Shown in pieces: positions 16,680 through 38,295 of a stretch of 44,017 nucleotides of DNA; within the stretch, counting starts at the first letter, position 1; every line of letters starts with the position of its first letter. A program made the position numbers and the translations under genes. Origin of the DNA: Actinomycetes bacterium (lineage in GTDB: Bacteria > Actinomycetota > Acidimicrobiia > IMCC26256 > Chersky-534); the NCBI GenBank assembly GCA_025463865.1, contig JAODBH010000235.1, positions 1 through 44,017 on the forward strand. The letters are read 5' to 3'. The notes under the pieces were generated by a model. It was not told the DNA's origin, made no database searches, and saw nothing but the letters and a program-made list of their open reading frames with translations.

Positions 16680-16777
16680 GCGCTCTCCGTCGCGTTCGTC
16701 ATCAACCGGTCAGGACTTCGTCTCGGGCGTTCTCCGACGGCTGCTGGCCCCGGCAACGCCAGTATCTTACGGTGTGA

Positions 16778-16788
16778 TGGTCAGACCA
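16778..16788. promoter_or_regulatory. FadR-type GntR operator between amidohydrolase and Rieske genes
   Basis: TGGTCAGACCA is a perfect match to the TGGTNNNACCA operator class of FadR-subfamily GntR proteins. It lies 15 bases before the Rieske ATG and about 100 bases before the divergent amidohydrolase start. A TATCTT at 16763-16768 could be the -10, placing the operator just past the transcription start. Likely bound by the regulator encoded at 41539-42258. Confidence 0.8.
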
Positions 16789-16802
16789 CGAAAGGGCGTG
16801 AC

Positions 16803-21201: not shown

Positions 21202-21230
21202 TTGATCCGGCGCTCCGGCGATCTTATGGT
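21202..21230 (+). promoter_or_regulatory. Predicted promoter of flavin reductase gene, overlapping the operator
   Basis: TTGATC (21202-21207) and TATGGT (21225-21230) are separated by 17 bases, a sigma70-like arrangement reading toward 21270. The -10 is the left half of the operator palindrome, so binding would block transcription. Sequence-based prediction only. Confidence 0.5.
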
Positions 21231-21238
21231 CTGACCAT
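21226..21238. promoter_or_regulatory. FadR-type GntR operator, perfect 13-base palindrome
   Basis: ATGGTCTGACCAT is a perfect palindrome around a central T and contains TGGTNNNACCA. It lies between the divergent Ntn hydrolase (start 21188) and flavin reductase (start 21270) genes. It is the best symmetric copy of the seven sites in the window. Confidence 0.85.
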
Positions 21239-21269
21239 TCGACCGTGATCCGCTCTCCGAGGAAGCCGC

Positions 21270-21944: not shown

Positions 21945-21986
21945 CCTCGGTGCCGTTTCTCGCCGCCTGTCCTGCGGACGGTCCGA

Positions 21987-21997
21987 TGGACTGACCA
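21987..21997. promoter_or_regulatory. GntR operator variant upstream of importer operon
   Basis: TGGACTGACCA differs from the consensus TGGTNNNACCA at one position. The surrounding CGATGGACTGACCATA is identical at 35290 upstream of the VOC-cupin-hydantoinase operon. A CATAAT at 21996-22001 overlaps its right edge and may be the -10 of the importer operon starting at 22133. Confidence 0.75.
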
Positions 21998-22132
21998 TAA
22001 TGGCGCGTATATTCATCCGTTCACAGATCCGTCCAAATCTGGTCATGTAGGGCCGTGAACCTGCGGCCGGGGGCAACACGAGCACCATTTCCGCACGAAC
22101 CGATCTCCAAGGCTGGGAAGGTGGATACCAGA

Positions 22133-23209
22133 ATGCGCAAACGGACAAAATTGTCATTGGTGGCCCCGATGTTGGTGCTGTCACTCATCGCTTCGGCGTT
22201 CGTGAGTGAAGCGGCATTCGCATCGCCGTCCACCCCCAAGCAGGCGGCACCCTGTCCGGGAACCCAGGGATGCACACCGAAGGCGCCAACGGGCAAGGGT
22301 GTGAAGATCGGCGTGCTCAGCGGTGGTGACACCAACGACCACGGCTACTACGAGAGCTTCATCGTCTCGGCCAAGGCGTACGCGAAGAAGAAGGGCTGGA
22401 CCCTGAGCGTCACGGACCGGGTCGCACCTGCGGCCGCCGCCGAGGACGCCCGGAGCCTCTGCCGTCAGGGCGTGAAGTTCGTCGCGCTCGCCGACAGTGC
22501 CAGCACCGACGCGATCCCGGTTGCCGCGGAGCCCGTCTGCAAGGGCGTGGTCTTCTACATCAACGGGAACGCGAAGCTCACCCCGTACGTGTTCAACACC
22601 ACCGACAGCATCAACGAATCGCAGGTCGCCGCCGGTTACGCGACGGGCCTCGTGATGAAGGCGAAGAAGCTGACGAAGGGCGCGTACATCAGCGGCCCCG
22701 ACCTCGACTTCGTGACCCAGGCGTTCAACGGCTGGACCGCGGGCATCAAGCTCGTCGTCCCGAAGGCCACGACGTCGAAGACCCTCACCGGCGACTTCGA
22801 CGACTCGGCTCTCGGCCAGGAAGCCGCCAAGGCCCAGCTCGCCAACGGCGCGCAGATCCTCTACCCGTACATGGGTGGGGCGACCGACGCCGTGGCCAAG
22901 GCGGGTGCCGCCGCGAAGGTGCTCTCCGTTGCTCCGGGTACCGACCGGTGCTCCGACAAGTCGTTCGTGGTGTCGTCGCTGTTCCCTCCGGGTGACTACT
23001 TCACCCAGGCGCTCCAGGACTGGTCGGCCGGCAAGGTGAAGATGGGCTCGTCGCTCGTGTTCAAGGTCGGCGTCGACAAGGTGCCGTCCGTGAAGGTCTG
23101 TCCGACCGCCCCGAACGCCAAGGCCATCCAGACGAAGGTCAACACGTTCATGAAGCAGATCGCTTCGGGCAAGGTGAACCCGGCGAAGATCGTCAAGAAC
23201 AGCAAGTGA
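22133..23209 (+). CDS. BMP-family ABC transporter substrate-binding protein
   Basis: This 358-residue secreted solute-binding protein of the basic-membrane-protein (BmpA/PnrA) family binds nucleosides or related compounds. The ATG at 22133 gives MRKRTKLS, a hydrophobic core (about 9-25) and a signal-peptidase I-like site after AFA (about residue 31). No lipobox Cys follows the hydrophobic core, unlike typical Gram-positive BMP lipoproteins. The mature part shows the family start KIGVLSGGDTNDHGYYESF, SESQVA-like NESQVAAGYATGLV and GGATDAV. It is the first gene of a four-gene importer operon. The operator at 21987 precedes it. Confidence 0.9.
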   Translation: MRKRTKLSLVAPMLVLSLIASAFVSEAAFASPSTPKQAAPCPGTQGCTPKAPTGKGVKIGVLSGGDTNDHGYYESFIVSAKAYAKKKGWTLSVTDRVAPAAAAEDARSLCRQGVKFVALADSASTDAIPVAAEPVCKGVVFYINGNAKLTPYVFNTTDSINESQVAAGYATGLVMKAKKLTKGAYISGPDLDFVTQAFNGWTAGIKLVVPKATTSKTLTGDFDDSALGQEAAKAQLANGAQILYPYMGGATDAVAKAGAAAKVLSVAPGTDRCSDKSFVVSSLFPPGDYFTQALQDWSAGKVKMGSSLVFKVGVDKVPSVKVCPTAPNAKAIQTKVNTFMKQIASGKVNPAKIVKNSK

Positions 23210-23242
23210 CCTGACCGGCCGAGTCGACGAAGGAAACACGCG

Positions 23243-24847
23243 ATGAGCGATGCGACATCGTCGACGATCGCGACCGGGAAGCCCTCGGGCTTCCCGGTCG
23301 TGCCGGCGGTCGAGATGCGGGGGATCATCAAGCGCTTCGGGTCCACCGTCGCGTGTGACCGGGTCGACCTGGTCGTGCAGCGGGGCGAGATCCACGGGCT
23401 CCTCGGCCAGAACGGAGCGGGCAAGTCGACCCTGATGAAGGTCCTCACGGGCCTGCTCACGCCCGACGCGGGCGTCATCTCCATCGACGGCGTGCCCCGC
23501 ATCGTGAAGGACCCGCACGCGGCGTCGAAGCTCGGCATCGCCATGGTGCACCAGCACTTCAGCGTGATCGAGGCGCTGACCGTGTGGGAGAACGTCGTGC
23601 TGGGCGAGAAGGGCCGGCTCGACGAGGCGGCCACCATCAAGAGTGTGCGGGCGATCTCCGAGCGCTACGGCCTCGACGTCGATCCCACCGCGAAGATCGC
23701 AACCCTCACCGCAGGCCAGCGTCAGCGGGTCGAGATCATCAAGTGCCTGCGCCGCGACCCGAGCATCGTCATCCTCGACGAGCCGACCTCGGTGCTGACG
23801 CTGGCCGAATCCGAAGAGCTGTTCAGCACGCTGCGCTACGTCGTGCGCGACGAGAACCGCGCCGTGGTCCTGATCAGCCACAAGCTCGACGAGATCCTCA
23901 ATGCCACCGACCAGGTCTGCATCATGCGCAGCGGGCTGGTGGTGGCACAGCTCGAGACCGCGGCCACCGACGCGCGCAGCCTGGCGCGCGAGATGGTGGG
24001 CCGCGAGGTCTCGCTGCGCGGGGAGGCCGTCGCCCTCGGCCTCATCCAGGAGGCGGAGGAGATCGCGGTCGAGGCCGCGGACGCCGTTGCCACCCCGGCC
24101 GGCGACGTCGCGCTCCGGATCGACGATGTCACCGTCAAGGGACCCGGCGGGGTGCGCCTGCTCGACCACCTCGACCTCGAGATCCGTCAGGGTGAGATCC
24201 TCGGTCTCGCGGGGGTGGAGGGCAACGGCCAGGTCACACTGGCGAACGTGCTCAGCAGTCTCACCGACGTCGACAGCGGCACGGTCGAGGTCGCCGGTCG
24301 AGCGGTGCGGGCCGGAAAAGCCGGAGCGATGGCGCGGGCCGGCGTGGCCGTCATCCCCGAGGACCGCCACGCCGCGGGCTGCGTCCTCGACATGTCCGTC
24401 GCCGAGAACCTCGTCCTCGACGACCTCGACCGCGTGTCGAACGGGCGCCTCGTCTCGTCGTCCAAGATCCGCGAGAACGCGATCCGGCTCATCCAGCAGT
24501 TCGACATCATGTGCCCGTCGCCCGACACGCCGATGCGCTTCCTCTCCGGCGGGAACCAGCAGCGCGTCGTGCTCGCCCGCCAGATCAGTCGGAACCCGAA
24601 GGTGCTCGTCGCCGCGCAACCCACCCACGGCCTCGACGTCGGCGCGGTGGAGTACATGACGGAGCAGTTACGCAGGGTCGCCGACGAGGGCGTCGCGGTG
24701 CTCCTCATCTCCACCGAGCTCGAGGAGATCCTCGCCCTGTCGGACCGGATCGCCGTCATCAACGAGGGCCGCATCATGGGCACCCTCGACCGGCAAGAGG
24801 CCGACCTCGATCGCATCGGGCTCATGATGGGAGGCCAGGAGCTGTGA
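23243..24847 (+). CDS. ABC transporter ATP-binding protein, two nucleotide-binding domains
   Basis: The 534-residue protein contains two ABC domains in the manner of sugar/nucleoside importers (RbsA/NupO-like). Domain 1 has Walker A GQNGAGKST (about residue 55), signature LTAGQRQR and Walker B IVILDEPTS. Domain 2 has signature LSGGNQQR, but its Walker A reads GVEGNGQVT, lacking the Lys-Ser/Thr, as is common in this family, so ATP hydrolysis rests on domain 1. It energises uptake of the ligand brought by the upstream binding protein. The stop overlaps the GTG start of the first permease gene. Confidence 0.95.
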   Translation: MSDATSSTIATGKPSGFPVVPAVEMRGIIKRFGSTVACDRVDLVVQRGEIHGLLGQNGAGKSTLMKVLTGLLTPDAGVISIDGVPRIVKDPHAASKLGIAMVHQHFSVIEALTVWENVVLGEKGRLDEAATIKSVRAISERYGLDVDPTAKIATLTAGQRQRVEIIKCLRRDPSIVILDEPTSVLTLAESEELFSTLRYVVRDENRAVVLISHKLDEILNATDQVCIMRSGLVVAQLETAATDARSLAREMVGREVSLRGEAVALGLIQEAEEIAVEAADAVATPAGDVALRIDDVTVKGPGGVRLLDHLDLEIRQGEILGLAGVEGNGQVTLANVLSSLTDVDSGTVEVAGRAVRAGKAGAMARAGVAVIPEDRHAAGCVLDMSVAENLVLDDLDRVSNGRLVSSSKIRENAIRLIQQFDIMCPSPDTPMRFLSGGNQQRVVLARQISRNPKVLVAAQPTHGLDVGAVEYMTEQLRRVADEGVAVLLISTELEEILALSDRIAVINEGRIMGTLDRQEADLDRIGLMMGGQEL

Positions 24848-26034
24848 CGGTTCCCGACCAGGTCACCCAGTCCGAAGAGATCATGCCCATGCTCATGGGC
24901 CCGAAGGTCGGCAAGACGCGGGCGGGCAACATCGCCATCAACGTCGGGCTCTACATCGTCGCATTCGCCGCCGCGTTCCTGCTCGTGTCCATCCTGATCC
25001 TCGCCACCACCACCACGTCCCCGTGGGACGTCATGCACGCGCTCTACACGGGCAGCGTCAGCGGCTGGGCCGCCATCGGCCTCACCCTCGAGCAGGCGAC
25101 GCCGATCCTGATCGTGGCCATCGGCGTCGTCATCGCCAACCGCGCCGGCACGTTCACCATCGGCCCGCAGGGTCAGTTCCTCATGGGCGGCCTCGTGGCC
25201 GGCTTCGTGATGTTCAAGTTCGGCCTGCCGGTCCCCGTCGCGCTGCCGCTGTGCCTCGTGGGCGGCGCGATCGGTGGTGCCATCTGGGCCGGTATCGCCG
25301 CGCTGCTGCGCTACACCCGCGGCGTCGACGTCATCATCAGCACGCTCCTCCTCAACTTCGTCGCGCTCGAGCTCGTCGACTTCTGTCTCAACAAGATCTT
25401 CCTGCTGCAGGAGAACGTGCCGACGAGCCCCAAGCCGCCGCAGTCGGCCCAGCTGACGACGGGTGAGCGGCTCCCGCGCATCGGCCACCTGCCCGGGTTC
25501 AGCGTCACGAGCGGCGTGCTGATCGCCATCGCCCTCACGGTGGCCGTCGCGTTCGTGCTCGCCCGCACGAAGTGGGGCTTCCGCGTGCGGATGCTCGGGC
25601 TCAACCCCACCGCTGCGCAGGCCGCGGGCGTGAGCATGGCCTTGTTCGGCGGCGGCGCGCTGATCCTCTCGGGCGCCTTCGCCGGCCTCGCCGGCGGGGT
25701 CTGGTTCGCCGGCATCGGCCTCCGGCTCACGCCCGGCTTCGAGGGTGGGCTCGGCGGTGAAGGCCTCCTGGTCGCGCTGATCGCCCGGCGGAGCGTGATC
25801 GCCACGGTCCCCATCGCGATCTTCTTCGGCATGCTCCACTCGGGCGGCGGCTACCTCGCCACCACCGGGGTGCCGACCAACATCGTCGACATCATCCGAG
25901 GCCTCGTCGTGCTCGCCGCGATCATGCCGCCGGTGATCCTGCACGTCTGGGACAACCGGCGATCGCTCCGGGTCGCGAGGCGTTCGGCCCAGCGCGCGGT
26001 GGCCGGAGCCGATCTGGTGGAGGTGGCGGCGTAA
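24844..26034 (+). CDS. BMP-type ABC transporter permease 1
   Basis: This 396-residue integral membrane protein has about nine or ten hydrophobic segments, beginning near residue 32. The family region ANRAGTFTIGPQGQFLMGG (about 98-116), resembling the N-R-A-G-x-x-x-I-G-x-E-G motif of nucleoside permeases, supports assignment to the BPD_transp_2 family. GTG at 24844 overlaps the ATPase stop; TAATG at the end overlaps the next ATG. The C-terminal 30 residues form a basic cytoplasmic tail. With permease 2 it forms the heterodimeric channel of the importer. Confidence 0.9.
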   Translation: MTVPDQVTQSEEIMPMLMGPKVGKTRAGNIAINVGLYIVAFAAAFLLVSILILATTTTSPWDVMHALYTGSVSGWAAIGLTLEQATPILIVAIGVVIANRAGTFTIGPQGQFLMGGLVAGFVMFKFGLPVPVALPLCLVGGAIGGAIWAGIAALLRYTRGVDVIISTLLLNFVALELVDFCLNKIFLLQENVPTSPKPPQSAQLTTGERLPRIGHLPGFSVTSGVLIAIALTVAVAFVLARTKWGFRVRMLGLNPTAAQAAGVSMALFGGGALILSGAFAGLAGGVWFAGIGLRLTPGFEGGLGGEGLLVALIARRSVIATVPIAIFFGMLHSGGGYLATTGVPTNIVDIIRGLVVLAAIMPPVILHVWDNRRSLRVARRSAQRAVAGADLVEVAA

Positions 26035-26942
26035 TGGCCAACCCGGTCACGACGATCCTGGGCAGCACCATGCGGCTCACCGCGCCGCTCGCCTTCGCGG
26101 CCAGCGGGGAGTACGTCGCCGAACGCGGCGGCACCCTCAACATCTCGCTCGAGGGGATGATGCTCGGCGGCGCCTTCTTCGGCGTGGTCGGAACGTCCGC
26201 CTTCGGCAACGTCTTCATGGGCCTCGTCTCGGGCGCGGTCGCCGGCCTGGTGCTGGGCATCATCCACGCCAACCTCAGTCATCGACTCACCGCCAACACG
26301 TTCGTCGTCGGCCTCACCCTCAACGTCCTGGTGCTCGGCCTCACGAGCTACCTGCTCGAGACCATGAATCCGGTGTCGCTGCAGGCCGGGATCATCAAGG
26401 TCCCGCTGCTCCACTCGTTGCCGATCGTCGGCGAAGCGCTCTTCACCAACCGTTGGCCGATGTTCCTGCTGCTGATCATCGTCCCGTTGTCGTGGTACCT
26501 CGTGAACCGCACCCGATGGGGCCTCGAGCTGCGCGCGTGCGGCGAGAACCCGCAGGCGGCCGACGTCAGCGGGATCAACGTCAACAAGCGGCGGCGCCAG
26601 GGCCTCTACTACGTCGGCTTCATGGCCGGTCTGGGGGGCGCCTACCTCTCGGTCGCCGAGGTCGGCCTGTTCAACCAGAACATGACCGCCGGACGCGGCT
26701 TCCTCGTGAACGCGGCGGTCATCTTCGGCGGGTGGCGCCTCGCCGGCATCATCGGCGGCTGCTTCCTCTTCGGCGGTACCGACGCGCTGCGGCTCGCGCT
26801 CCCCGCGCTCGGATACTCGATCCAGCCGCAACTGCTGATCGTGCTCCCCTACCTCTTCGCCATCCTCGCGATGTGCTTCTTCGCCAAGCGCAACCAGGCT
26901 CCCGCCGCCCTCGCCAAGCCCTTCGAACGCGGTCTCACCTGA
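26034..26942 (+). CDS. BMP-type ABC transporter permease 2
   Basis: This 302-residue membrane protein has about eight segments. It opens with a region carrying ERGGTLNISLEGMMLGGAF (about 26-44), the N-I-x-x-E-G-M-M-L motif typical of the second permease of nucleoside-type BMP importers (NupQ/YufQ-like). A second conserved block is MTAGRGF near 220. It overlaps the preceding gene by one base and is followed by a strong terminator-like hairpin, so it ends the importer operon. Confidence 0.9.
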   Translation: MANPVTTILGSTMRLTAPLAFAASGEYVAERGGTLNISLEGMMLGGAFFGVVGTSAFGNVFMGLVSGAVAGLVLGIIHANLSHRLTANTFVVGLTLNVLVLGLTSYLLETMNPVSLQAGIIKVPLLHSLPIVGEALFTNRWPMFLLLIIVPLSWYLVNRTRWGLELRACGENPQAADVSGINVNKRRRQGLYYVGFMAGLGGAYLSVAEVGLFNQNMTAGRGFLVNAAVIFGGWRLAGIIGGCFLFGGTDALRLALPALGYSIQPQLLIVLPYLFAILAMCFFAKRNQAPAALAKPFERGLT

Positions 26943-28109: not shown

Positions 28110-28127
28110 CGCCTCGACGGAGTGGCT

Positions 28128-28811
28128 GTGAGCCGACCGTACGCCGGCACTTCCGCCGCGACGGGCGACGCGCCCCCACTCCGCCTGCTCGAAGGCCCGC
28201 TCGACCGGCGCGCGGCTCCGGGGCCCGCCTCGGAGGCGGCGGTGCTCGTCGTCGACATCCAGCGCGGCTTCGCCGACCCGGAGCTGCTGCCCTGGGTACC
28301 CCCCGAGTCAATCGGCGAGATCGACGCCGCCATCCGCAGCGCCAACCGGCTCGTGGCCGCGGCACGCGGTGCCGGCGTCCCGGTGGTGTGGGTCCGGCTC
28401 GTGCAGCACCGCGAGAGCCCGTGGCACGCCTCCGACTGGTTCCGCGGCTACGAGGGCGACGAGCACGGGCCCTGCGTGGCCGGTACGGGCAGCGTCGACT
28501 GGTTCGGGGTCGCACCGGGCGACGGCGAGCTCGTCGTCGACAAGCACCGCTACAACGGCTTCCTCGACACGCCGCTCGAGAGCATGCTCCGGGAGATGGG
28601 TGTCACGTGGTTCGTCGCGTGCGGGCTGTCGACCGAGTGCTGCGTCGAGTCGACGGTGCGGGGCGGCTTCGAGCTCGGCTTCCGCGCCGTCGTCGCCGCG
28701 GACGCGTGCGCGGCGTGGCCGCCGGAGCTGCACACCGGGGCGCTCCGCTCCATGGCCGCGAACTACGCGCTCGTCGCGGACGTCGACGCCATCGTCGCCA
28801 CGATCACCTGA
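28128..28811 (+). CDS. Isochorismatase-family cysteine hydrolase (amidase)
   Basis: The 227-residue protein carries the Asp-Lys-Cys triad of the family: D43 in VLVVDIQRGF, K139 in VVDKHRYNGF and C172 in LSTECCVESTVRGG. The family includes N-carbamoylsarcosine amidase, biuret hydrolase, nicotinamidase and RutB, all cleaving C-N bonds of small amides or carbamoyl groups. The CVEST block resembles RutB and isochorismatase-like ureidoacrylate hydrolases. GGAG at 28119-28122 favours the GTG at 28128 rather than the one at 28122. It probably removes a carbamoyl or amide group from a ring-opened intermediate; the exact substrate is open. Confidence 0.85.
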   Translation: MSRPYAGTSAATGDAPPLRLLEGPLDRRAAPGPASEAAVLVVDIQRGFADPELLPWVPPESIGEIDAAIRSANRLVAAARGAGVPVVWVRLVQHRESPWHASDWFRGYEGDEHGPCVAGTGSVDWFGVAPGDGELVVDKHRYNGFLDTPLESMLREMGVTWFVACGLSTECCVESTVRGGFELGFRAVVAADACAAWPPELHTGALRSMAANYALVADVDAIVATIT

Positions 28812-28832: not shown

Positions 28833-29435
28833 CTACTTGGCGCTGAGGCCCGAGAGGCCGCCGACGACGGGCTTGATCGGCGTGGCCATGAACTTCCGGA
28901 GCGCCGGCTCGAAGTCCTCGAGCGCCAGGTTCGGGTAGTTGGGGTCGAAGGCGGGCTGGTCGAACTCCTCGCAGAACTCCGCGGTGAGGTCGAAGTACTC
29001 GTGGCCCCGGAACTCCTCGCGGGCGTTGCGATCGCCGCCGACGTAGTGGAAGAAGTAGTAGCCCTGGAAGATCGCGTGCTTCTCGACCATCCAGTAGAGG
29101 TCGGGCCGTGCGAACGGCTTGACCACCGCGGCGGCGTGGTCGGCGTGGTTGTAGATGCCGAGCGTGTCGCCGATGTCGTGGAGCAGCGCGCACACGACGT
29201 AATCGTCGTCCCGGTCGGCCCGGTAGGCCCGGGTCGCGGTCTGCAGGCTGTGCTCGAGCCGGGTGACGTGGAAGCTCGAGCCCTGGTCGTCGAGAAGCCG
29301 CAGCGCGTCGAGGATCCGGTCGGGCAGCGCGTCGCGGAAGGCGACGTCCTCCTCGCGCAGGGCGTCCCAGTCCTCCTGGGTGCTGTCCTTCATCGCCGTG
29401 AACCAGGTACGGGGCGGGTTGATGATCTCGGTCAC
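28833..29435 (-). CDS. HD-domain protein resembling PhnZ-type diiron oxygenases
   Basis: The 200-residue protein has probable metal ligands H62 (RLEHSLQTA), H86-D87 (ALLHDIGD), H97 or H100 (NHADHAA), H120 (EKHAIFQGYYF) and a late Asp (D159 or D164). The LEH-x23-HD spacing and the FQGYY segment are those of the HD subgroup that contains PhnZ, a mixed-valent diiron oxygenase that cleaves C-P bonds, rather than nucleotide phosphohydrolases. A simple phosphohydrolase remains possible. It is divergent from the LLM oxidoreductase gene, with a GntR-type operator in the gap, tying it to the regulon. Confidence 0.75.
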   Translation of the reverse strand: MTEIINPPRTWFTAMKDSTQEDWDALREEDVAFRDALPDRILDALRLLDDQGSSFHVTRLEHSLQTATRAYRADRDDDYVVCALLHDIGDTLGIYNHADHAAAVVKPFARPDLYWMVEKHAIFQGYYFFHYVGGDRNAREEFRGHEYFDLTAEFCEEFDQPAFDPNYPNLALEDFEPALRKFMATPIKPVVGGLSGLSAK

Positions 29436-29477
29436 GGGGCCTCCACGAGGTCGGCGCCCCGGAGCGCGGGTGCCGTA

Positions 29478-29488
29478 TGGTCTGACAT
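29478..29488. promoter_or_regulatory. Degenerate FadR-type GntR operator between HD and LLM genes
   Basis: TGGTCTGACAT keeps the left half and centre of the consensus and deviates in the last two bases. It is in the 98-base gap between divergent starts at 29435 and 29534. TATGGT at 29476-29481 is the same -10-like element seen at 21225 and 32798, although no good -35 was found. Confidence 0.6.
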
Positions 29489-29533
29489 TCGGACACTCTA
29501 GTGACGGCCCGGCCGCAACGGAAGCAAGCGCCC

Positions 29534-30424
29534 ATGAGCAGCTCGCCCGGTTCCACGGTCCTTCTCGGCGCGGGGTTTCCCAGTGGTCTCGTCGGCTCCG
29601 ATCGCGGCGCGGCCCGCGCGTACCTGCAGGCGATCGAGTCCGCCGGGTTCGGCTATCTCTCGGTGTCCGACCACGTCGTCGGGGCCGACCGCGCCAGCCA
29701 CCCGGGTTGGCCCGGACCGTTCGACCTCAGCCGCAGCTCGACCGAGCCCGCGGTGCTGCTCGGCTATCTGAGCGCGCTCACCGGCCTCGAGCTCACGTCG
29801 GGCATCGTCGTGCTCCCGACCCGTCCCGCGGCGCTCGTGGCCAAGCAGGCCGCGGAGATCGACCGGCTCACCGGCGGTCGCTTCCGACTCGGCGTCGGCC
29901 TGGGTTGGAGCCCGGTCGACTTCGAGGCGATGGGCGCGGACATGGCGACGCGGGGTGACCGCTTCGAGGAGCAGATCGACGTCATGCGTCGCCTGTGGAC
30001 CGAGCCCGTCGTCACCTTCTCCGGCCGCTTCCACACGCTCGACGGAGCGGGCATCAACCCTCGCCCGGTGCAACAGCCGATCCCGATTGCGATCGCGACG
30101 ACCGACGCGCCCCGAGCGCTCGCGCGGGTCGGCCGGATCGGTGACGGTTGGATCCCCGCGATCCCCGTGGGTGGCGAGCTCGACGCGGCCAAGGCGATCG
30201 TCGATCAGGCGGCGCGCGACGCCGGCCGCGATCCCTCGCGCATCGAGCTCGAGGGCTCGGTCGCCGTCCGTCCCACCGAGCCCGACGCGATGCTCACCGA
30301 GCTCGACGCCTGGACCGCTTCCGGCGCGCGGCGCGTGCTGCTGAGCACCACGGGCCTCGCCGGCGACCTCGACGCCCACATCGCCGCGCTCACCGAGGCG
30401 GCCGCTGCCGTCCGCGGTCGATGA
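29534..30424 (+). CDS. Luciferase-like (LLM) F420- or FMN-dependent oxidoreductase
   Basis: This 296-residue TIM-barrel protein of the bacterial luciferase family has the typical blocks FGYLSVSDHVV (about 36-46), LTSGIVVLPTRPA (about 81-93) and GGRFRLGVGLGWSPVDFEAMG (113-133). It also has FSGRFHTLDGAGINPRPVQ near 165-183. The pattern is that of actinobacterial F420-dependent LLM proteins. FMN-dependent monooxygenases such as RutA belong to the same fold and cannot be excluded, the more so because a flavin reductase lies in the same regulon. The ATG at 29534 is preferred to a GTG at 29501. The downstream NIPSNAP-like gene converges with it. Confidence 0.85.
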   Translation: MSSSPGSTVLLGAGFPSGLVGSDRGAARAYLQAIESAGFGYLSVSDHVVGADRASHPGWPGPFDLSRSSTEPAVLLGYLSALTGLELTSGIVVLPTRPAALVAKQAAEIDRLTGGRFRLGVGLGWSPVDFEAMGADMATRGDRFEEQIDVMRRLWTEPVVTFSGRFHTLDGAGINPRPVQQPIPIAIATTDAPRALARVGRIGDGWIPAIPVGGELDAAKAIVDQAARDAGRDPSRIELEGSVAVRPTEPDAMLTELDAWTASGARRVLLSTTGLAGDLDAHIAALTEAAAAVRGR

Positions 30425-30806: not shown

Positions 30807-31364
30807 TCACAGGATGTAGGCGACGTTGCCCATCGGGCCGTCGATGTCGAGGCGATGGATCACGCGGATCGCGATGCGCCAGCCGCCGGCGTCCGGGCGG
30901 AGCCGGTACAGCAGCGTGGCCGGGTGCGCGACGAGGTGCTCGCGTCGCCAGTCCCAGATCACCGCGCTCGCGCGCACCCGCAGGTCGCCGTCGGTCATCG
31001 GCCAGGCCTCGACGTTGGTGATCACCCGCTGCGTGCGCGCCGGAGGTATCTGCGCGTGGGCCCAGCCGGTGTCGAGCAACGCGATGCGGTCCTCGAGCCG
31101 ACGGTGGTCGTCGAGCAGGTACGACACCGCGCGCCGCGGGTCCTCGATCGGCGCGGTCGACGGGATCCAATAGACGCAGTCGTCGGTGAACAGCTCGAGC
31201 CATGCCTTGTAGCCGCCGTCGTCGAGCAGGCGTGCCTCGCGCGCGAGGAACGCGGCCGCGACGTCCAGCAGCTCGGGATCCGCGGGGCCGGTCTCCGACC
31301 GCAGCTGGGCCACGAACGCCACCAGGTCGTCGTAGGCGGCATCGTCGAGGGCGGAGAAGCTCAT
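30807..31364 (-). CDS. Aromatic-ring-hydroxylating dioxygenase beta (small) subunit
   Basis: The 185-residue SnoaL/NTF2-fold protein typical of Rieske dioxygenase beta subunits shows LLDDGGYKAWLELFTDDCVYWIPS (residues 45-68) and RTQRVITNVEAW (about 108-119). The end is GWRIAIRVIHRLDIDGPMGNVAYIL (161-185). It stabilises the alpha3-beta3 oxygenase rather than binding metal. Its only visible partner is the alpha subunit at 16803, some 13 kb away on the other strand. Its ATG overlaps the carbamoylase stop in an ATGA, so the two proteins are made in a coupled fashion. Confidence 0.85.
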   Translation of the reverse strand: MSFSALDDAAYDDLVAFVAQLRSETGPADPELLDVAAAFLAREARLLDDGGYKAWLELFTDDCVYWIPSTAPIEDPRRAVSYLLDDHRRLEDRIALLDTGWAHAQIPPARTQRVITNVEAWPMTDGDLRVRASAVIWDWRREHLVAHPATLLYRLRPDAGGWRIAIRVIHRLDIDGPMGNVAYIL

Positions 31365-32650
31365 CGGACGGCTCCAGGGCTCGGGGGCGGCAGACGGTCG
31401 AGCCCCACGATCGTCGCGGCCAGCACGCCGATCCCCGCGGCGAGGTCGGCCGGGTCGGTCCACTCCTCGGCGCAGTGGCTGCGCCCGTCGAGCGACGGCA
31501 CGAAGATCAGCCCGCTGCGGGCGATGCGAGCGATCTGGCGGGTGTCGTGCTCGGCGCCGCTCGCGAGCTCGAGCGGGTCGTAGCCGGCGGCGCGGGCCGC
31601 GGCGTCGATCGCGCCGCGCACCTGCGGGTCCATCGGCGTGGGGGGCTCGTCCGACAGCACGTCGACCGAGAGCCCGACCCCCCGACGGGAGGCCGCGGCG
31701 GCCGCGGCCGCGAGCGCCGCGTCCCGTCGTTCGCTGACCCACGCGGGGTCGATGCTTCGGAGCTCCATCCAGACGCGGGCCCGGTCGGGTACGACGTTCA
31801 TCGCGCCCGGTTCCACTTCCACCCTCCCGGTCGTGCCCACTCCGCCACCGCCCTGCGCGAGGGCCTCGACCGCCAGCATCAGCTCCGCCGCCGCGCACGC
31901 GGCGTCGTGGCGCTGGTCCATCGGCATCGTGCCCGCGTGGTCCCGTCGTCCCGCGAACTCGACCAGCACCCGGTGCACGCCGACGATCCCGGTGACGACG
32001 CCGATCGCCCGGCCCGCGAGCTCGAGCACCGGACCCTGCTCGATGTGCAGCTCCACGAACGCGTGCGGCAGGGGCCACCGCCCGGTGAGCGCGGTCTCGG
32101 GGTCGCGGCCGAAGTCGGCGAGTGCACGGGCGAGGGTGCGGCCATGCGCGTCGGTCCGCTCGAGGTCGGCCCGCGCGAGCCCACCGGTGACGGCCCGGCT
32201 CCCGACGCACGACAGACCCCAGTCGTTCGGCTCCTCGCCGAGGAAGTCGACCACCTGGAGATCGTGCTCGAGCTCGATGCCCGCGGCCGACAGGGCCCGG
32301 GCCGCCTCGAGGCCGCCGAGCACGCCGAGGACCCCGTCGTAGCGTCCGCCGCCGCGCACCGTGTCGGTGTGGGAACCGGTGACGACCGCGCCCGGCGCCC
32401 CGCGACCGGTGCGCGTGCCGATCAGGTTGCCCGCGCCATCGGTCTCGACCTCGAGGCCGACCTCCGCCATCCGCGCGGCCAACCAGACCCGGCCGGACCG
32501 GTGCGCGTCGCGGAAGACCCGTCGGGTGGAACCGGGCTCGTCGGGCTCGCGATAGGCCGCCAACTCGGCGATGTCGGCCAGGACACGCTCGACGTCGATG
32601 CGGACCGGTCCGCCGCCGACCCGGGGGGCATCGCGAGGCTGGCTGCTCAT
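31361..32650 (-). CDS. N-carbamoyl-amino-acid hydrolase / allantoate amidohydrolase family (M20) enzyme
   Basis: This is a 429-residue metallo-amidase of the hydantoinase/carbamoylase (HyuC, AllC, beta-ureidopropionase) family. Two-metal ligands are visible: H94 in GSHTDT, D105 in GGRYDGVLG, the EE pair in VDFLGEEPN, H in ELHIEQGP and a late H in DGRSHCAEEW. A dimerisation lid domain lies about 225-335, with RRDHAGTMPM. It hydrolyses an N-carbamoyl or ureido group to an amine, CO2 and ammonia. It leads a three-gene minus-strand unit with a GntR-type site 18 bases upstream of its start. Which N-carbamoyl compound it takes is unknown; a beta-ureido acid would fit a pyrimidine- or hydantoin-like route. 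Confidence 0.9.
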   Translation of the reverse strand: MSSQPRDAPRVGGGPVRIDVERVLADIAELAAYREPDEPGSTRRVFRDAHRSGRVWLAARMAEVGLEVETDGAGNLIGTRTGRGAPGAVVTGSHTDTVRGGGRYDGVLGVLGGLEAARALSAAGIELEHDLQVVDFLGEEPNDWGLSCVGSRAVTGGLARADLERTDAHGRTLARALADFGRDPETALTGRWPLPHAFVELHIEQGPVLELAGRAIGVVTGIVGVHRVLVEFAGRRDHAGTMPMDQRHDAACAAAELMLAVEALAQGGGGVGTTGRVEVEPGAMNVVPDRARVWMELRSIDPAWVSERRDAALAAAAAAASRRGVGLSVDVLSDEPPTPMDPQVRGAIDAAARAAGYDPLELASGAEHDTRQIARIARSGLIFVPSLDGRSHCAEEWTDPADLAAGIGVLAATIVGLDRLPPPSPGAVR

Positions 32651-32667
32651 CACGCCGGCGAGACTAT

Positions 32668-32678
32668 CGGTCAGACCA
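32668..32678. promoter_or_regulatory. GntR operator adjacent to carbamoylase gene
   Basis: CGGTCAGACCA has one change from TGGTNNNACCA and lies 18-28 bases upstream of the carbamoylase ATG (32650). A second perfect site at 32800 serves the divergent aldolase gene, so this 216-base gap holds two operators. Confidence 0.75.
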
Positions 32679-32774
32679 TCGGACCGAAATGCCGCGGTCG
32701 CCCTGTTCTCGCGGCCGTAACAACCGTGGTTCGCGGTGTAGCGCTGCGGTGCGGGAGGCTTCACCGGGTTCCGG

Positions 32775-32866: not shown

Positions 32867-33637
32867 ATGTCGATTTCGTACTCCGCCGTCGGCGCGGGAA
32901 AAGAGCGTCGAATCCGCCGTTTCATCAAGGCCGACGGCCGGTCGCTCCTCGTCGCGGTCGACCACGCGGCATACATGGGCCAGGGCCCGCCGCTCTCGGT
33001 CATCGGTGACATCGCGCGGGGCGGCCCCGACGGCGTGCTCGCCACCTGGCACGTCGCCCGGTCCAGCGCGATCGAGCTCTCGGAGGCCGGGCTGGTCCTG
33101 CGGGTCGACGGCGGGATGTCGGAGCTCGGATCGTTCGCCGCATCAGACGTCTCCACGCTGCTCGCGTCGGTCGACGACGCCCTGCGCGTCGGGGCCGACG
33201 CCGTGGTCGTGCTCGCGTTCCCGGGGACGAAGGACGAAGAGGTCTCGTTGCAACGGCTCGCGCTGCTCTGCGCCGAGTGCGAGAAGGTCGGCCTCCCGGT
33301 CATCGCCGAGGCGCTGCCGGGTGGCTTCGGCCAGGAGATCGAGTGGACCTTCGACACGGTCGCCCGCGCCGCGCGCATCGCGGCCGAACTCGGCGCCGAC
33401 GTCGTGAAGACCGTGTGCCCCGGTGACCCGAAGGGCTTCGGCGAGGTCGTCGCGGCGTGCCCGGTGCCGGTCGTGGCCCTCGGTGGACCACGGGTCGACA
33501 ACGAGGACGACATCGTCAACTTCGCCAAGGGCATCGTCGACGCCGGCGCCTGCGGGGTGGCCATCGGCCGCAACGTCTGGGGCTCCCCCGACCCGGCGAA
33601 GCTGGTCACCCGCCTCCGCGAAGCCATCCACGGCTGA
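32867..33637 (+). CDS. DeoC/LacD/FbaB-type class I aldolase
   Basis: This 256-residue TIM-barrel aldolase has SLLVAVDHAAYMGQGP near the start and the Schiff-base Lys in ADVVKTVCPGD (about 185). VVALGGP (about 203) and GVAIGRNVWGSPDP (225-238), the phosphate-binding C-terminal barrel motifs of the DhnA/FbaB/LsrF group, are also present. It cleaves or forms a C-C bond in a phosphorylated or CoA-linked intermediate. The ATG has GAGGTGA upstream. It leads the two-gene unit with the aldehyde dehydrogenase, suggesting that the aldehyde released is oxidised at once. Confidence 0.85.
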   Translation: MSISYSAVGAGKERRIRRFIKADGRSLLVAVDHAAYMGQGPPLSVIGDIARGGPDGVLATWHVARSSAIELSEAGLVLRVDGGMSELGSFAASDVSTLLASVDDALRVGADAVVVLAFPGTKDEEVSLQRLALLCAECEKVGLPVIAEALPGGFGQEIEWTFDTVARAARIAAELGADVVKTVCPGDPKGFGEVVAACPVPVVALGGPRVDNEDDIVNFAKGIVDAGACGVAIGRNVWGSPDPAKLVTRLREAIHG

Positions 33638-33732
33638 CCGCTCCACTTGCGCCGGCACCGCCCTCCGACCGCGGCTCCGAACGCTGCCTGCACCCCATCG
33701 ACCCAGGCTCCCGGGCCTGGCTGGAGGCCCGA

Positions 33733-35241
33733 ATGACTGACACCGCAGCCCCGCCGGTCTTCGATCCGAGTTGGGTCCGCTCCGACCCGTATCCGCAGGT
33801 CATCGCAGGTCTTGAGGTCGGCGACGGGATGCGGATGCCGCTCGTCAACCCCGGCACCGGCGAGCAGGTCGGCAGCTGGCTCGAGGCCACCGACGACGAG
33901 GTCGACCGCGCCCTGGCCGCGGCCCGCACGTCGTTCGACGACGGCGTCTGGCGTCGCCGGCCGCCGGCGCGACGGGCCGAGGTGCTCGAGCGGGTCGCGC
34001 ACGCGATCCGCGACCGCGTGCCCGAGCTCATCGGGCTCGACTGCGTGAGCACCGGCAAGGTCTTCCTCGGCGGCATCGGCTACGACGGCTACGAGGCCTA
34101 CAACGCGTTCATGGGTGCGGCCGCCACGATCCGCGAGGCCGCGGGCGAGGTGCGCGAGGCCGCGTTCCCGCCCGGCCTCTTCCCGGGCGACGGGCCGCGC
34201 ATCCTGTCGATCCGCAACCGCGAGCCGGTCGGGGTCGTCGCCGAGCTGCTGCCCTGGAACGCACCCCTCTACACGGGCAGCGAGCGCATCGCGGGCGCGC
34301 TCGCCGCGGGTTGCTCGGTGGTGGCCAAGCCGTCGGAGGAGTCCCCCGCGAGCTTCGTCGAGCTCGCCGCCATCATGCGTGAGGCCGGCCTCCCCGACGG
34401 CGTCTTCAACGTCGTGCTGGGCCGGGGCGAGACCGTCGGCGACCGCCTGATCCGCGACCCGCGGGTCGACCTCGTCAGCGTCACCGGCTCGGTCGAGACG
34501 GGCACCCGCGTCTACGAGATCGCCGCGAGCAACATGAAACGGGTCAACCTGGAGCTCGGCGGCAAGGCCCCCGTCGTCGTCTTCGCCGACGCCGACCTCG
34601 ACGCGGTCGCCACGTGGGCGATGCTCGCCGCGTTCAACAACATGGGCGAGGTCTGCGTTGCCGGAACCCGCCTGCTCGTCGAGGCCTCGGCGTACGATGA
34701 CGTCGTCGCGGCCGTGGCCGGCGCCGCGTCGGGCCTGCCGATCGGCGACCAGTTCGACGCCCAGACCTTCATCGGGCCGCTCGTCAACGCGGAGCATGCC
34801 GACCGGGTCCGCGGGTTCGTCGAGCGGGCCATCAGCGACGGTGGCGCGACGCTCGTGGGCGGCGGCACGGTGCCCGACGGCCTGAACGGCGCCTTCGTCG
34901 CCCCGACCGTCCTCGGCGACCTCGGCGCGGGCGCCGAGATCGAGCAGAACGAGGTCTTCGGCCCGGTCATCGCCGCCCAGCGGTTCGAGACCGAGGACGA
35001 GGCCCTCGCCCGGGCCAACTCGACCCAGTACGGGCTGAGCGCGTCGGTGTTCACCGGCAACATCGAGCGCGCGTTCCGATTCGCCGACCGCCTCGTCGCC
35101 GGCAACGTGCAGATCAACCACCACTACTCGGCGGACAGCCACATCCCGCGCGGCACCCCCCGCCGCAAGAGCGGCACCGGCCTGGCCGGCGTCGGCGCCT
35201 ATCAGGCCCCGAAGAGCATCGACGTCAACCTCGGTTTCTGA
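33733..35241 (+). CDS. NAD(P)-dependent aldehyde dehydrogenase
   Basis: The 502-residue ALDH-superfamily enzyme has all key residues in place: Asn in LLPWNAPLYTG (about 176), Glu in LELGGKAPVVVF (about 275) and the catalytic Cys in NMGEVCVAGTRL (about 309). GGAGG precedes the ATG. It oxidises an aldehyde to the acid, probably that made by the aldolase 95 bases upstream. Semialdehyde substrates such as malonate or succinate semialdehyde would be consistent with pyrimidine-type breakdown, but the sequence alone does not discriminate. Confidence 0.9.
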   Translation: MTDTAAPPVFDPSWVRSDPYPQVIAGLEVGDGMRMPLVNPGTGEQVGSWLEATDDEVDRALAAARTSFDDGVWRRRPPARRAEVLERVAHAIRDRVPELIGLDCVSTGKVFLGGIGYDGYEAYNAFMGAAATIREAAGEVREAAFPPGLFPGDGPRILSIRNREPVGVVAELLPWNAPLYTGSERIAGALAAGCSVVAKPSEESPASFVELAAIMREAGLPDGVFNVVLGRGETVGDRLIRDPRVDLVSVTGSVETGTRVYEIAASNMKRVNLELGGKAPVVVFADADLDAVATWAMLAAFNNMGEVCVAGTRLLVEASAYDDVVAAVAGAASGLPIGDQFDAQTFIGPLVNAEHADRVRGFVERAISDGGATLVGGGTVPDGLNGAFVAPTVLGDLGAGAEIEQNEVFGPVIAAQRFETEDEALARANSTQYGLSASVFTGNIERAFRFADRLVAGNVQINHHYSADSHIPRGTPRRKSGTGLAGVGAYQAPKSIDVNLGF

Positions 35242-35291
35242 CGCTTTGAGATTGTCCGGCCCGATCCTCAGCCGTAGGGTTGTCGGACCGA

Positions 35292-35302
35292 TGGACTGAC
35301 CA
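35292..35302. promoter_or_regulatory. GntR operator variant upstream of VOC-cupin-hydantoinase-gntR operon
   Basis: TGGACTGACCA, one change from consensus, is embedded in CGATGGACTGACCATA, the same 16 bases as at 21985 upstream of the importer operon. It lies 23 bases before the GTG start at 35326. TTGTCG at 35280-35285 and ATAGAA at 35302-35307 (16-base spacing) could form the promoter. This unit includes the GntR gene, so the site would give autoregulation. Confidence 0.75.
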
Positions 35303-35325
35303 TAGAACCAACCGCGGAGCAGGCA

Positions 35326-35835: not shown

Positions 35836-36224
35836 CTGGCGGCATCTTGGGGAACGTGGCGAACGAGAGCTCACTCATCTACTTCTTCGACGACGACGCG
35901 TTCAAGGAGACGCAGCCCGGGTTCCGTCGCCGGATCATCAACGGCGACACCCTGAGCCTGTGCTTCTGGCGCATCGCCGACGGATCGGGGCCGACCCCCT
36001 ACGACGGCCACCCGCAGAACGAGCAGTTCGGCCTCATCGTCAAGGGCACCCTCGACTTCCGCCTCGACTCCGAGGAGCGGATCAAGCTCGGCCCCGGCGA
36101 CGTGTACCACGCGCCGCTCGGCACGCCCCACGGCGACAGCTACTTCATCGGTGACCCGGAGTACGGCGAGGTCTGGATCGTCGACATCTTCTCGCCCGTG
36201 CGCGAGGAGTACCGCGGTGGCTGA
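35832..36224 (+). CDS. Small cupin-domain protein
   Basis: This 130-residue beta-barrel protein has the two cupin motifs: HPQNEQFGLIVKGTLDF (about 60-76) with His and Glu, and LGPGDVYHAPLGTPHGDSYF (86-105) with His. It may bind Fe, Mn or Zn and act as dioxygenase, isomerase or small-molecule sensor. The start overlaps the VOC stop and the end overlaps the HyuA start by eight bases, so its expression is tied to the hydantoinase. Its substrate is unknown. Confidence 0.8.
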   Translation: MTGGILGNVANESSLIYFFDDDAFKETQPGFRRRIINGDTLSLCFWRIADGSGPTPYDGHPQNEQFGLIVKGTLDFRLDSEERIKLGPGDVYHAPLGTPHGDSYFIGDPEYGEVWIVDIFSPVREEYRGG

Positions 36225-38295
36225 CTGGAGGCTCGCGGTCGACATCGGTGGCACCTTCACCGACGCGGTCCTCATCGACGGCGAGTCGGGTCGGGTCGTC
36301 GTCGACAAGACGCTCTCGACCCCGTCGCAGCCGCTGGAAGGGGTCAAGCGCGGTGTCCTCGGCGCGCTGGCGCGGGCCGGGATCACGCCGGAGGAGATCC
36401 GCGCGCCGATCGTGCACGCCACCACCCTCGTCACCAACGCGCTGATCGAGGGGAAGATCGCCAACGCGGCGCTCGTCACCACGCTCGGCTTCGCCGACAC
36501 GCTGCTGATCCGCAACGAGCACCGCTACGACATGTACGACCTGCAGATCGAGTTCCCGCCGCCGCCGATCCCGCGCGACCGCACGTTCGAGATCGACGAG
36601 CGCGTCTCCTCCGACGGCACCGTGCTCACCGTTCCCGACCGCGCCGCGATCGAGCGCCTGGCCGCGGAGCTGCAGGCCGTCGAGGCCGAGGCCGTCGCCA
36701 TCTGCTTCCTGAACTCCTACGCGAACCCGGGGAACGAACGCGCGGTCGCCGCCGGCCTGGCCGAGCTCCTCGACGTGCCGGTCTGCGCTTCGAACGAGAT
36801 CGCCCCGCAGATCCGCGAGTACCCCCGCATGGTCACCACCGCGTGCAACGCGTCGACCATGCCGGTGATCGGCCCGTACCTCGAGGAGTTCCAGTCCTGG
36901 CTCGCGGAACAGGGCTTCGGCGGCAGCCTGCTGATCATGCTGTCGAACGGCGGTGTGGTCTCGGCCGACGTCGCGGCGAAGAACCCGATCCGCATGGTGG
37001 AGTCGGGCCCGGCCGCGGGTGCGTTGGCGGGCAGCTGGTACGCCCGCCGCCTCGACGAGCCGCGGCTGCTCTGCTTCGACATGGGCGGCACGACCGCCAA
37101 GTCGTGCCTCATCGAGGACTTCGACGCCGAGCTCACCACCGACTTCGAGATCGCCCGCATGTACCGGTTCAAGAAGGGCTCCGGGTTCCCGGTGACGGTC
37201 CCTTCGATCGACCTGGTCGAGATCGGTGCAGGCGGCGGCAGCATCGCCCGGGTCGACGACCTCGGCCTGCTCAAGATCGGCCCCGACTCCGCCGGCGCCG
37301 AGCCGGGCCCGGCCTGCTACGGACGCGGTGGTGTGAACCCCACCGTCACCGACTCCGACGTCGTGCTCGGCAACCTCGACCCCGGCTTCTTCCTCGGCGG
37401 CGAGATGGTCCTCGACCTCGAGGCCGCGGAGCACGCGATCGGCAAGGTGTCGGCTTCGCTCGAGACGTCGATCGTGGAGACCGCCGGCGGCGTGATCGAG
37501 CTCGTCGACCAGAACATGGCCGCGTCGGCACGCATGCACGCGGTCGAGCGGGGTGCCGACCTGCGCGGGGTGTCGCTGATCGCGTTCGGCGGGGCGGGAC
37601 CTGTGCACGCGTGCGGCGTCGCGGAGCTGCTCGACTCCCCCCGCGTCATCTTCCCGGCCAACGCCAGTGTGCTGTCGGCGTTCGGCGCGCTGGTCACCCC
37701 GGTCCGCATGGACCTCGCCCGCAGCTTCGTGCGCAAGTTCGACGACGTCGCCGACGCCGACCGTGAGGCGCTGCTGGAGGAGATGCGCGCCGAGGGCCGG
37801 CGCGTGCTCGCGTCGGCCGGCGTGGCCGAGAGCGACGTCACGTTCCGCTACGGCGTCGACGCCCGCTATCAGGGCCAAGGCAACGAGATCACGCTCTGGG
37901 TCGGCACGGGTGAGTCGTGGCCGACCACCTCGGAGGAGCTCCTCGCGCAGTTCTCGGAGCAGTACCGCACGATGTACGGCATGACCATCCCCGACGTCGC
38001 GGTGGAGGTCGTCACCTGGCGCATCTCGGCCTTCGGCTCCGATCCCGCGCTGACGCTCCACGGACTCCAGCCGACGGGCGCGGTGCCCACACCGAAGGGC
38101 AGCCGGCCGGTGCGCTTCTCCCGCACCGCTCCCGCGGTCGACGTCCCGGTCTACGAGCGCAGCGCGCTCGAGGTCGGCGCCCGGATCGTCGGGCCCGCGA
38201 TCATCGAGGAGCGCGAGACCACCGCCGTGCTCCGGCCCACCTGGGTCGCCACCGTCGACGGCGACTCGTCGCTGGTCGCCGAGCGGGTGCAATGA
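36217..38295 (+). CDS. Hydantoinase/oxoprolinase family subunit A (N-methylhydantoinase A-like)
   Basis: The 692-residue ATP-binding subunit of the HyuA family has the acetate/sugar-kinase-type phosphate loops LAVDIGGTFTDAV (about 5-17) and CFDMGGTTAKSCLIED (about 286-301). LVEIGAGGGSIARVD, AGAEPGPACYGRGG and FGGAGPVHACG follow. Members open hydantoin or pyroglutamate-type rings or carboxylate ketones at the cost of ATP. The GTG at 36217 has GAGGAG 7 bases upstream and overlaps the cupin end. It acts with the next gene. Alternative: an acetophenone-carboxylase-like enzyme, because a CoA ligase follows in the operon. Confidence 0.9.
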   Translation: MADWRLAVDIGGTFTDAVLIDGESGRVVVDKTLSTPSQPLEGVKRGVLGALARAGITPEEIRAPIVHATTLVTNALIEGKIANAALVTTLGFADTLLIRNEHRYDMYDLQIEFPPPPIPRDRTFEIDERVSSDGTVLTVPDRAAIERLAAELQAVEAEAVAICFLNSYANPGNERAVAAGLAELLDVPVCASNEIAPQIREYPRMVTTACNASTMPVIGPYLEEFQSWLAEQGFGGSLLIMLSNGGVVSADVAAKNPIRMVESGPAAGALAGSWYARRLDEPRLLCFDMGGTTAKSCLIEDFDAELTTDFEIARMYRFKKGSGFPVTVPSIDLVEIGAGGGSIARVDDLGLLKIGPDSAGAEPGPACYGRGGVNPTVTDSDVVLGNLDPGFFLGGEMVLDLEAAEHAIGKVSASLETSIVETAGGVIELVDQNMAASARMHAVERGADLRGVSLIAFGGAGPVHACGVAELLDSPRVIFPANASVLSAFGALVTPVRMDLARSFVRKFDDVADADREALLEEMRAEGRRVLASAGVAESDVTFRYGVDARYQGQGNEITLWVGTGESWPTTSEELLAQFSEQYRTMYGMTIPDVAVEVVTWRISAFGSDPALTLHGLQPTGAVPTPKGSRPVRFSRTAPAVDVPVYERSALEVGARIVGPAIIEERETTAVLRPTWVATVDGDSSLVAERVQ

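Follow-up and report, generated by a model that had tools for sequence, protein, structure and literature searches.

A 2020 review names, in its account of the characterised HD-domain oxygenases, only MIOX, PhnZ and TmpB (PMC8177086). In the mechanism set out there, Fe1 holds the substrate, O2 bound at Fe2 removes one of its hydrogens, and cleavage occurs at the C-X bond lying opposite the iron; in PhnZ and TmpB the Glu of a YxxE loop binds the amino group of the substrate (PMC8177086). The same text gives the six-residue ligand series of these oxygenases and cautions that the cofactor and substrate of HD proteins cannot be inferred from sequence alone, and that sequence and metal alone do not settle whether a protein is an HD hydrolase or belongs elsewhere (PMC8177086).

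We have analysed an HD protein encoded on a 44,017-nucleotide stretch of actinomycete DNA, here called the window, which is the whole of contig C54, one of 285 contigs in a 3.96-Mb genome. An initial annotation described this protein as PhnZ-like and recruited to an N-heterocycle-type regulon. The reading we prefer, and consider rather probable, is that of an O2-dependent, probably mixed-valent diiron HD oxygenase which serves in an N-heterocycle-type regulon and cleaves a bond at a hydroxylated carbon.

The HD protein and its relation to known oxygenases

The HD gene is real (Table 1), and its product carries the motifs noted at the outset: LEH (residues 60-62), followed after 23 residues by HD (86-87), and FQGYY (123-127). 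H62, H86, D87, H97, H120, D159, F123 and Q124 are invariant in all 156 non-identical translations of the family (193 translated matches less two with stops and 35 identical ones). The ortholog in a sister species (G001) is 88% identical. An Rfam scan of the window gave no match.

Table 1. Features of the window (positions in the 44,017-nucleotide stretch)
Feature	Position	Strand	Remarks
HD-domain protein	28833-29435	-	200 aa, GTG start; predicted diiron oxygenase, Asp90 type
H62 codon, predicted first ligand (LEH)	29250-29252	-	invariant (156/156); aligns with PhnZ-type ligand
H86-D87 codons, HD dyad	29175-29180	-	predicted ligands; 156/156; aligned to PhnZ-type
D90 codon	29166-29168	-	Asp 110/156, Lys 46/156; His in PhnZ
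H97 codon, predicted ligand	29145-29147	-	156/156; aligned to PhnZ-type
H120 codon, predicted ligand, then AIFQGYY	29076-29078	-	156/156; aligned to PhnZ-type
D159 codon, predicted ligand (FDQ)	28959-28961	-	156/156; aligned to PhnZ-type
Residues 50-59, loop corresponding to the YxxE substrate loop of PhnZ/TmpB	29259-29288	-	holds 4/7 lineage-specific departures; rewritten in the genus
Operator common to HD (-) and LLM oxidoreductase (+)	29476-29494	+	2 mismatches in sister species
Operator-like site, amidohydrolase (-)/Rieske alpha (+)	16772-16789	-	3 mismatches
Operator	21226-21243	+	0 mismatches
Operator upstream of transporter	21981-21998	-	0 mismatches
Operator, carbamoylase (-)/aldolase (+)	32667-32684	+	2 mismatches; core exact
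Operator upstream of glyoxalase/hydantoinase run	35286-35303	-	1 mismatch
LLM-class F420-type oxidoreductase, divergent from HD	29534-30424	+	Pfam 3.1e-46; TIGR03619 over cut-off
Isochorismatase-family hydrolase, RutB-like, convergent neighbour of HD	28122-28811	+	model searches
Rieske ring-hydroxylating oxygenase alpha subunit	16803-18035	+	Pfam Ring_hydroxyl_A, Rieske
Ring-hydroxylating oxygenase beta subunit	30807-31364	-	Pfam
Amidohydrolase, TRZ/ATZ/deaminase type	15255-16679	-	
M20 carbamoylase, ErtE-like	31361-32650	-	485.7 bits against cut-off of 520
Hydantoinase/5-oxoprolinase-type subunit A	36217-38295	+	
Hydantoinase-type subunit B	38339-39934	+	
BMP-type ABC transporter: binding protein, ATPase, two permeases	22301-26942	+	Pfam Bmp (binding protein); rest read from sequence
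FadR-type GntR regulator, end of cluster	41539-42258	+	Pfam GntR, FCD

An AlphaFold2 model of the protein, made from 48 rows (the window protein and 47 of 80 relative loci), has a mean pLDDT of 88.6 and a pTM of 0.84. The modelled fold is closest to PhnZ (Z 17.9, 3.0 Å, 153 aligned positions, shared over residues 31-187) and TmpB (Z 17.0), followed by MIOX (mouse Z 11.7, human Z 10.8); among the matches listed, all other structures, including every hydrolase, reach a Z of 8.5 or less. With the predicted model, Foldseek gave E values of 1e-6 to 2e-5 for PhnZ/TmpB and 0.03 for MIOX. A sequence search of solved structures also retrieved PhnZ and TmpB as the related ones, and a family profile (22 rows) run against the PDB gave 5.7e-12 for PhnZ and 1.3e-10 for TmpB, with a dGTPase (0.019) and MIOX (0.13) next. 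When the family was compared profile to profile with PhnZ-type proteins of the same phylum (probability 99.3, E 9.5e-21), H62, H86, D87, H97, H120 and D159 fell on the six PhnZ-type ligand positions. The PhnZ-type profile used eight of 12 loci, filtered for the AKR motif; the four omitted loci also show AKR, and they are four of the five loci among the 12 at which an antisense translation was also produced.

The fold ranking, the profile and the ligand set thus agree with the diiron-oxygenase branch to which the protein had been assigned. As far as sequence and model can tell, it is likely to be a diiron oxygenase and, by analogy with the characterised enzymes, would contain iron, use O2 and have a mixed-valent site.

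Database names would instead make it a metal-dependent phosphohydrolase or another HD hydrolase. The Pfam HD model matches (8.7e-07) and a close plasmid relative is annotated as a phosphohydrolase. Dinuclear HD hydrolases share the six-ligand pattern, which counts against the diiron-oxygenase reading. YqeK-type hydrolases, for example, can be dinuclear according to the review cited above (PMC8177086). However, the hydrolases listed remain at a Z of 8.5 or less against 17-18 for PhnZ/TmpB, and none does better than 0.019 in the profile search. Because both the fold ranking and the profile search favour PhnZ/TmpB, the relation to HD hydrolases is not the closest one, and we regard a hydrolase as unlikely. 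The initial annotation had listed two findings that would speak against its own proposal, close homology to nucleotide phosphohydrolases and absence of the second iron site: PhnZ and TmpB proved closer, and the predicted ligands of the second site are all there.

An oxygenase acting on the C-P bond of phosphonates, as in the PhnZ/TmpB family, is suggested by the nearest solved structures. The best NCBIfam models are also three phosphonate oxygenases, but all lie far under cut-off (NF052439, TIGR03276 and NF049941, with 29.9, 29.2 and 22.5 bits against 300, 214.6 and 300). In addition, PhnZ Glu27 corresponds to Phe55 of the window protein, and the position of this YxxE Glu is occupied in the family by Phe (139), Tyr (16) or Cys (1; n=156). 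H-x-x-AKR, found in 12 of 12 PhnZ-type translations, is replaced by H-x-x-FQG. With the Glu replaced and AKR changed to FQG, the phosphonate signature is therefore absent from the family sequences, and a phosphonate substrate appears very improbable.

The window family shares with PhnZ and TmpB the predicted fold, the order and identity of the six iron ligands and the spacing from the first His to HD. It differs in having Asp or Lys for the PhnZ His after HDxG and a shorter linker from HD to the next His, and it forms a separate clade (support 100). 'PhnZ-like' is consequently correct for fold and ligands and incorrect in the narrow sense, since the phosphonate residues are lost and the clade has hundreds of members of its own, mostly outside N-heterocycle regulons. 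No alpha-KG hydroxylase gene adjoins the window HD gene, and a few relatives have one. The statement that phosphonate genes are missing is true of the window proteins scanned, among which there are none; in the genome, a model search for the PhnZ-type family Phn-HD gave one sub-cut-off match. This is a PhnZ-type protein on another contig (C28:50462-50917, L204).

The six-ligand series and the core fold are also those of MIOX, which likewise lacks the YxxE loop in the review's description (PMC8177086), and one relative carries the annotation 'inositol oxygenase family protein'. Unlike MIOX, the window protein falls under the Pfam MIOX cut-off (PF05153, 21.4 against a gathering cut-off of 25) and is shorter, at 200 residues, than the mouse chain with 289. 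A MIOX family search of 198 genomes of the phylum gave 0 matches, and its control likewise gave none.

A widespread family with two clades

Judged from its sequences, the family is a separate, widespread and unnamed branch comprising an Asp90 and a Lys90 clade; no published description of it was found in the literature searched. In an 83-row tree the two types of residue 90, the position after HDxG, form two clades related by a single change (supports 91 and 86). After FQG, the Lys clade tends to R/K-H and the Asp clade to Y-Y. Together with residue 90, this may reflect a change in the charge of the pocket.

A scan of 84,980 species genomes showed that at least 594 confirmed relatives are encoded. 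Among genomes near that of the window, 49 of 61 contain matches at E values no higher than 0.001 (some short and weak), and a phylum-wide draw gave a match at 1e-15 in 26 of 396. Orthologs 50-61% identical to the window protein occur, among the matches listed, in Pseudomonas, Caulobacter, Sphingomonas, Acidimicrobiia and others, spanning many phyla. Relatives on plasmids are annotated as phosphohydrolase, hypothetical protein, HD domain-containing protein or inositol oxygenase family protein. The source genome itself has four members, on contigs C54, C182, C241 and C267. That on C182 (L155/L002) adjoins a gene for a PhyH-family dioxygenase.

Operator, regulon and a second HD paralog

The spacer between the HD start (29435, minus strand) and the LLM gene (29534-30424, plus strand) contains TATGGTCTGACATTCGGAC at 29476-29494. 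The window holds four sites resembling TATGGTCWGACNATTSGAC, where 0.03 would be expected, and nine matches to a broader 18-bp operator pattern (1.0 expected; two pairs among the nine are both strands of one palindrome). Some are located between gene pairs (amidohydrolase/Rieske alpha, HD/LLM and carbamoylase/aldolase); the others precede a flavin reductase-like gene, the transporter and the glyoxalase/hydantoinase run. Genome-wide, the 16-base core has four exact matches. Three are on C54, and the fourth, at C267:34187, lies upstream of the HD paralog of that contig; allowing up to one mismatch gives ten sites, seven of them on C54 and C267. The operator common to the HD and LLM genes, and the regulon behind it, are real, as had been proposed, and the model scores uphold the identification of the divergent neighbour as an LLM enzyme. 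The FadR-type regulator is a candidate repressor for these TGGTCWGACCA operators, and its homolog adjoins the same operators in another genome (G059).

From its sequences, the regulon gene set, which also includes a formamidase-like protein, reads as one for N-heterocycle breakdown. It resembles the Rut and hydantoin/carbamoyl-amino-acid pathways in holding an LLM enzyme, a RutB-like hydrolase, hydantoinase-type subunits and an ErtE-like carbamoylase, and differs in that its pathway enzymes reach no equivalog cut-off. To our knowledge, neither pathway includes HD or Rieske oxygenases. The Rieske alpha family is itself abundant in the source genome (14 matching stretches on ten contigs). An ergothioneine pathway, suggested by the ErtE-like carbamoylase, was rejected: the score is sub-cut-off and a literature search found no paper.

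The C267 paralog (33479-34048, minus strand; L004/L173) is of the Lys90 type and divergent from a Rieske alpha gene. The source genome therefore places two HD types, Asp90 on C54 and Lys90 on C267, under one operator. Amidohydrolase, HD, operators and Rieske alpha lie together on C267 and likewise in the sister species, where the block around the ortholog of the window HD gene is also syntenic (81-100% identity).

In another family of the class, G059 has a homologous cluster with a Lys-type HD gene 2 nt from its amidohydrolase gene (70%). This cluster also includes a FadR-type regulator, glyoxalase, hydantoinase A/B, ligase, Rieske alpha, transporter, enolase-family gene, aldo/keto reductase and alcohol dehydrogenase, with four operator-like sites at the regulator, glyoxalase and transporter. 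The HD proteins nearest to that of G059 on the tree, those of G170 and G245, are encoded in the same gene set, with three (0.7 expected) and six (0.45 expected) operator-like sites, and the enolase-family gene, HD and amidohydrolase occur together in all three genomes. When seven other loci were compared, the sister-species counterpart of C267 was found with amidohydrolase, HD and Rieske alpha (91%); no regulon homolog accompanied the remaining six. The Lys90 HD gene thus accompanies homologs of regulon genes in four further genomes (G001, G059, G170 and G245), and the steadiest partners of HD in the regulon are the Rieske oxygenase and the amidohydrolase, rather than the LLM enzyme.

Since G059, G170, G245 and the C267 counterpart carry the Lys type, this is the regulon's conserved HD protein, the Asp type being a second one seen in one genus. 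In the case of the window protein, the evidence for the regulon consists of the operator and two species of one genus. Two observations count against its regulon role: its close orthologs (50-61%) are, among the matches listed, mostly outside any such regulon, and the regulon HD of G059, G170 and G245 is the Lys90 paralog and not the window ortholog. The role is supported by the operator and less by orthology. Of the original proposal of an N-heterocycle-type regulon, co-regulation stands, by operator and gene set; the more conserved HD of the regulon is the other, Lys90 paralog on C267.

Gene neighbours elsewhere and a proposed role

No single conserved operon partner was found when co-directional neighbours within 100 nt were clustered (43 clusters, 124 loci). 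Largest among these were an Mpo1-like cluster, with 14 exclusively Pseudomonas-type loci, and a class II aldolase cluster, with six loci in alpha-, beta- and gammaproteobacteria. The HD gene was missed by the gene caller in six of 130 loci and, in another set, in 14 of 40. On a mobilizable plasmid of Sphingobium baderi from activated sludge (L034:5052-7353), class II aldolase, HD and alpha/beta hydrolase genes form a run. In the Mpo1-like cluster an Asp-type HD gene directly follows the gene of this 2-hydroxy-palmitic acid dioxygenase family (L070:9613-9930 and 13 further loci), and a link to 2-hydroxy fatty acid oxidation is possible.

The main rival to our reading accepts a diiron oxygenase but assigns it a substrate of general housekeeping or detoxification, such as a 2-hydroxy acid, the gene having been borrowed by the regulon. 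The widespread orthologs without a common operon partner are in its favour, as are the 14 loci with HD 100 nt or less after the Mpo1-like gene, Mpo1 being described as a 2-hydroxy fatty acid dioxygenase in the text consulted (PMC13332142). Against this, the operator links the window gene to the regulon, and the window lineage has a long stem in the tree (0.48, compared with a median end branch of 0.18). Furthermore, 87 close relatives share 67 columns with at least 90% conservation, and the window and sister proteins depart in seven of these; four are in residues 50-59, hitting four of the seven conserved loop columns (p 0.0014, post hoc). Several other relatives have equally many departing columns overall, though outside the loop. 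As the stem is long and the departures cluster in the substrate loop, there is a hint that the substrate has changed relative to the orthologs. We give the general role an appreciable but clearly minor chance.

PhnZ and TmpB act after a hydroxylase. As in TmpA/TmpB, a GBBH-type TauD hydroxylase gene lies beside HD at three separate loci (L042, L186 and L179). On the Pseudomonas aeruginosa plasmid pF045_1 (L042:8857-10582) the two genes are 1 nt apart and are followed by genes for a choline-binding protein, choline dehydrogenase and aldehyde dehydrogenase; in G355 they overlap by 4 nt, and G143 also has the pair. Other neighbours are PhyH (two loci) and a fatty acid hydroxylase (one), and Rieske oxygenases are found near family HD genes in the window regulon, on an Acinetobacter plasmid and, in G245, near its Asp-type HD gene. 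In 27 representatives (70% identity clusters) of the 124 loci, non-haem hydroxylases were not significantly enriched beside the family compared with control positions: TauD 3, PhyH 2 and FA_hydroxylase 1 among 94 near genes, and TauD 1 and Rieske alpha 1 among 57 control genes. These numbers omit wrong-strand calls (five of 99 near genes, four from L173 and one from L171, and one of 58 control genes, from L173); the Pfam tallies cover the best 25 families, with FA_hydroxylase and the control Rieske alpha taken from other annotation. Since it does not exceed control positions, hydroxylase pairing is used here as a hint only.

The diiron oxygenase that we favour would represent a third branch of HD oxygenases beside PhnZ/TmpB and MIOX, with a probably mixed-valent Fe(II)/Fe(III) site. 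The regulon, probably under the FadR-type regulator, would import an N-heterocycle or its breakdown product and open the ring through amidohydrolase, hydantoinase and carbamoylase steps, and the co-regulated Rieske oxygenase (or the LLM enzyme) would provide the hydroxyl. By analogy with the known enzymes, Fe1 would bind the substrate through a hydroxyl on a C-H-bearing carbon, Fe2 would bind O2, which would abstract the hydrogen of this carbon, and the neighbouring C-C bond (preferred) or C-N bond would be cleaved to give a carboxylate. The oxidative C-N or C-C cleavage first suggested for the protein may thus be its reaction, with the pathway position and the bond as we infer them here.

A more far-reaching proposal, which we consider doubtful as a whole, is that the family is a third large branch of mixed-valent diiron HD oxygenases cutting C-C bonds of hydroxylated ring compounds. 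In the regulon, the Asp90 and Lys90 types would open or shorten Rieske-made diols or carbinols derived from an N-heterocycle, by a route distinct from the extradiol, intradiol and LLM-type ones and independent of a reductase. Substrate class (cationic, anionic or phosphonate) would depend on which residue (Asp, Lys or His) follows HDxG.

If the assignment is true, the family of at least 594 relatives, with the full ligand set in each one examined and none of the phosphonate-binding residues, would make up a large new branch. The defined operator and operon would provide a context for guessing a substrate that is neither phosphonate nor inositol, and an interesting enzyme would be hidden behind ordinary HD-domain or phosphohydrolase annotation.
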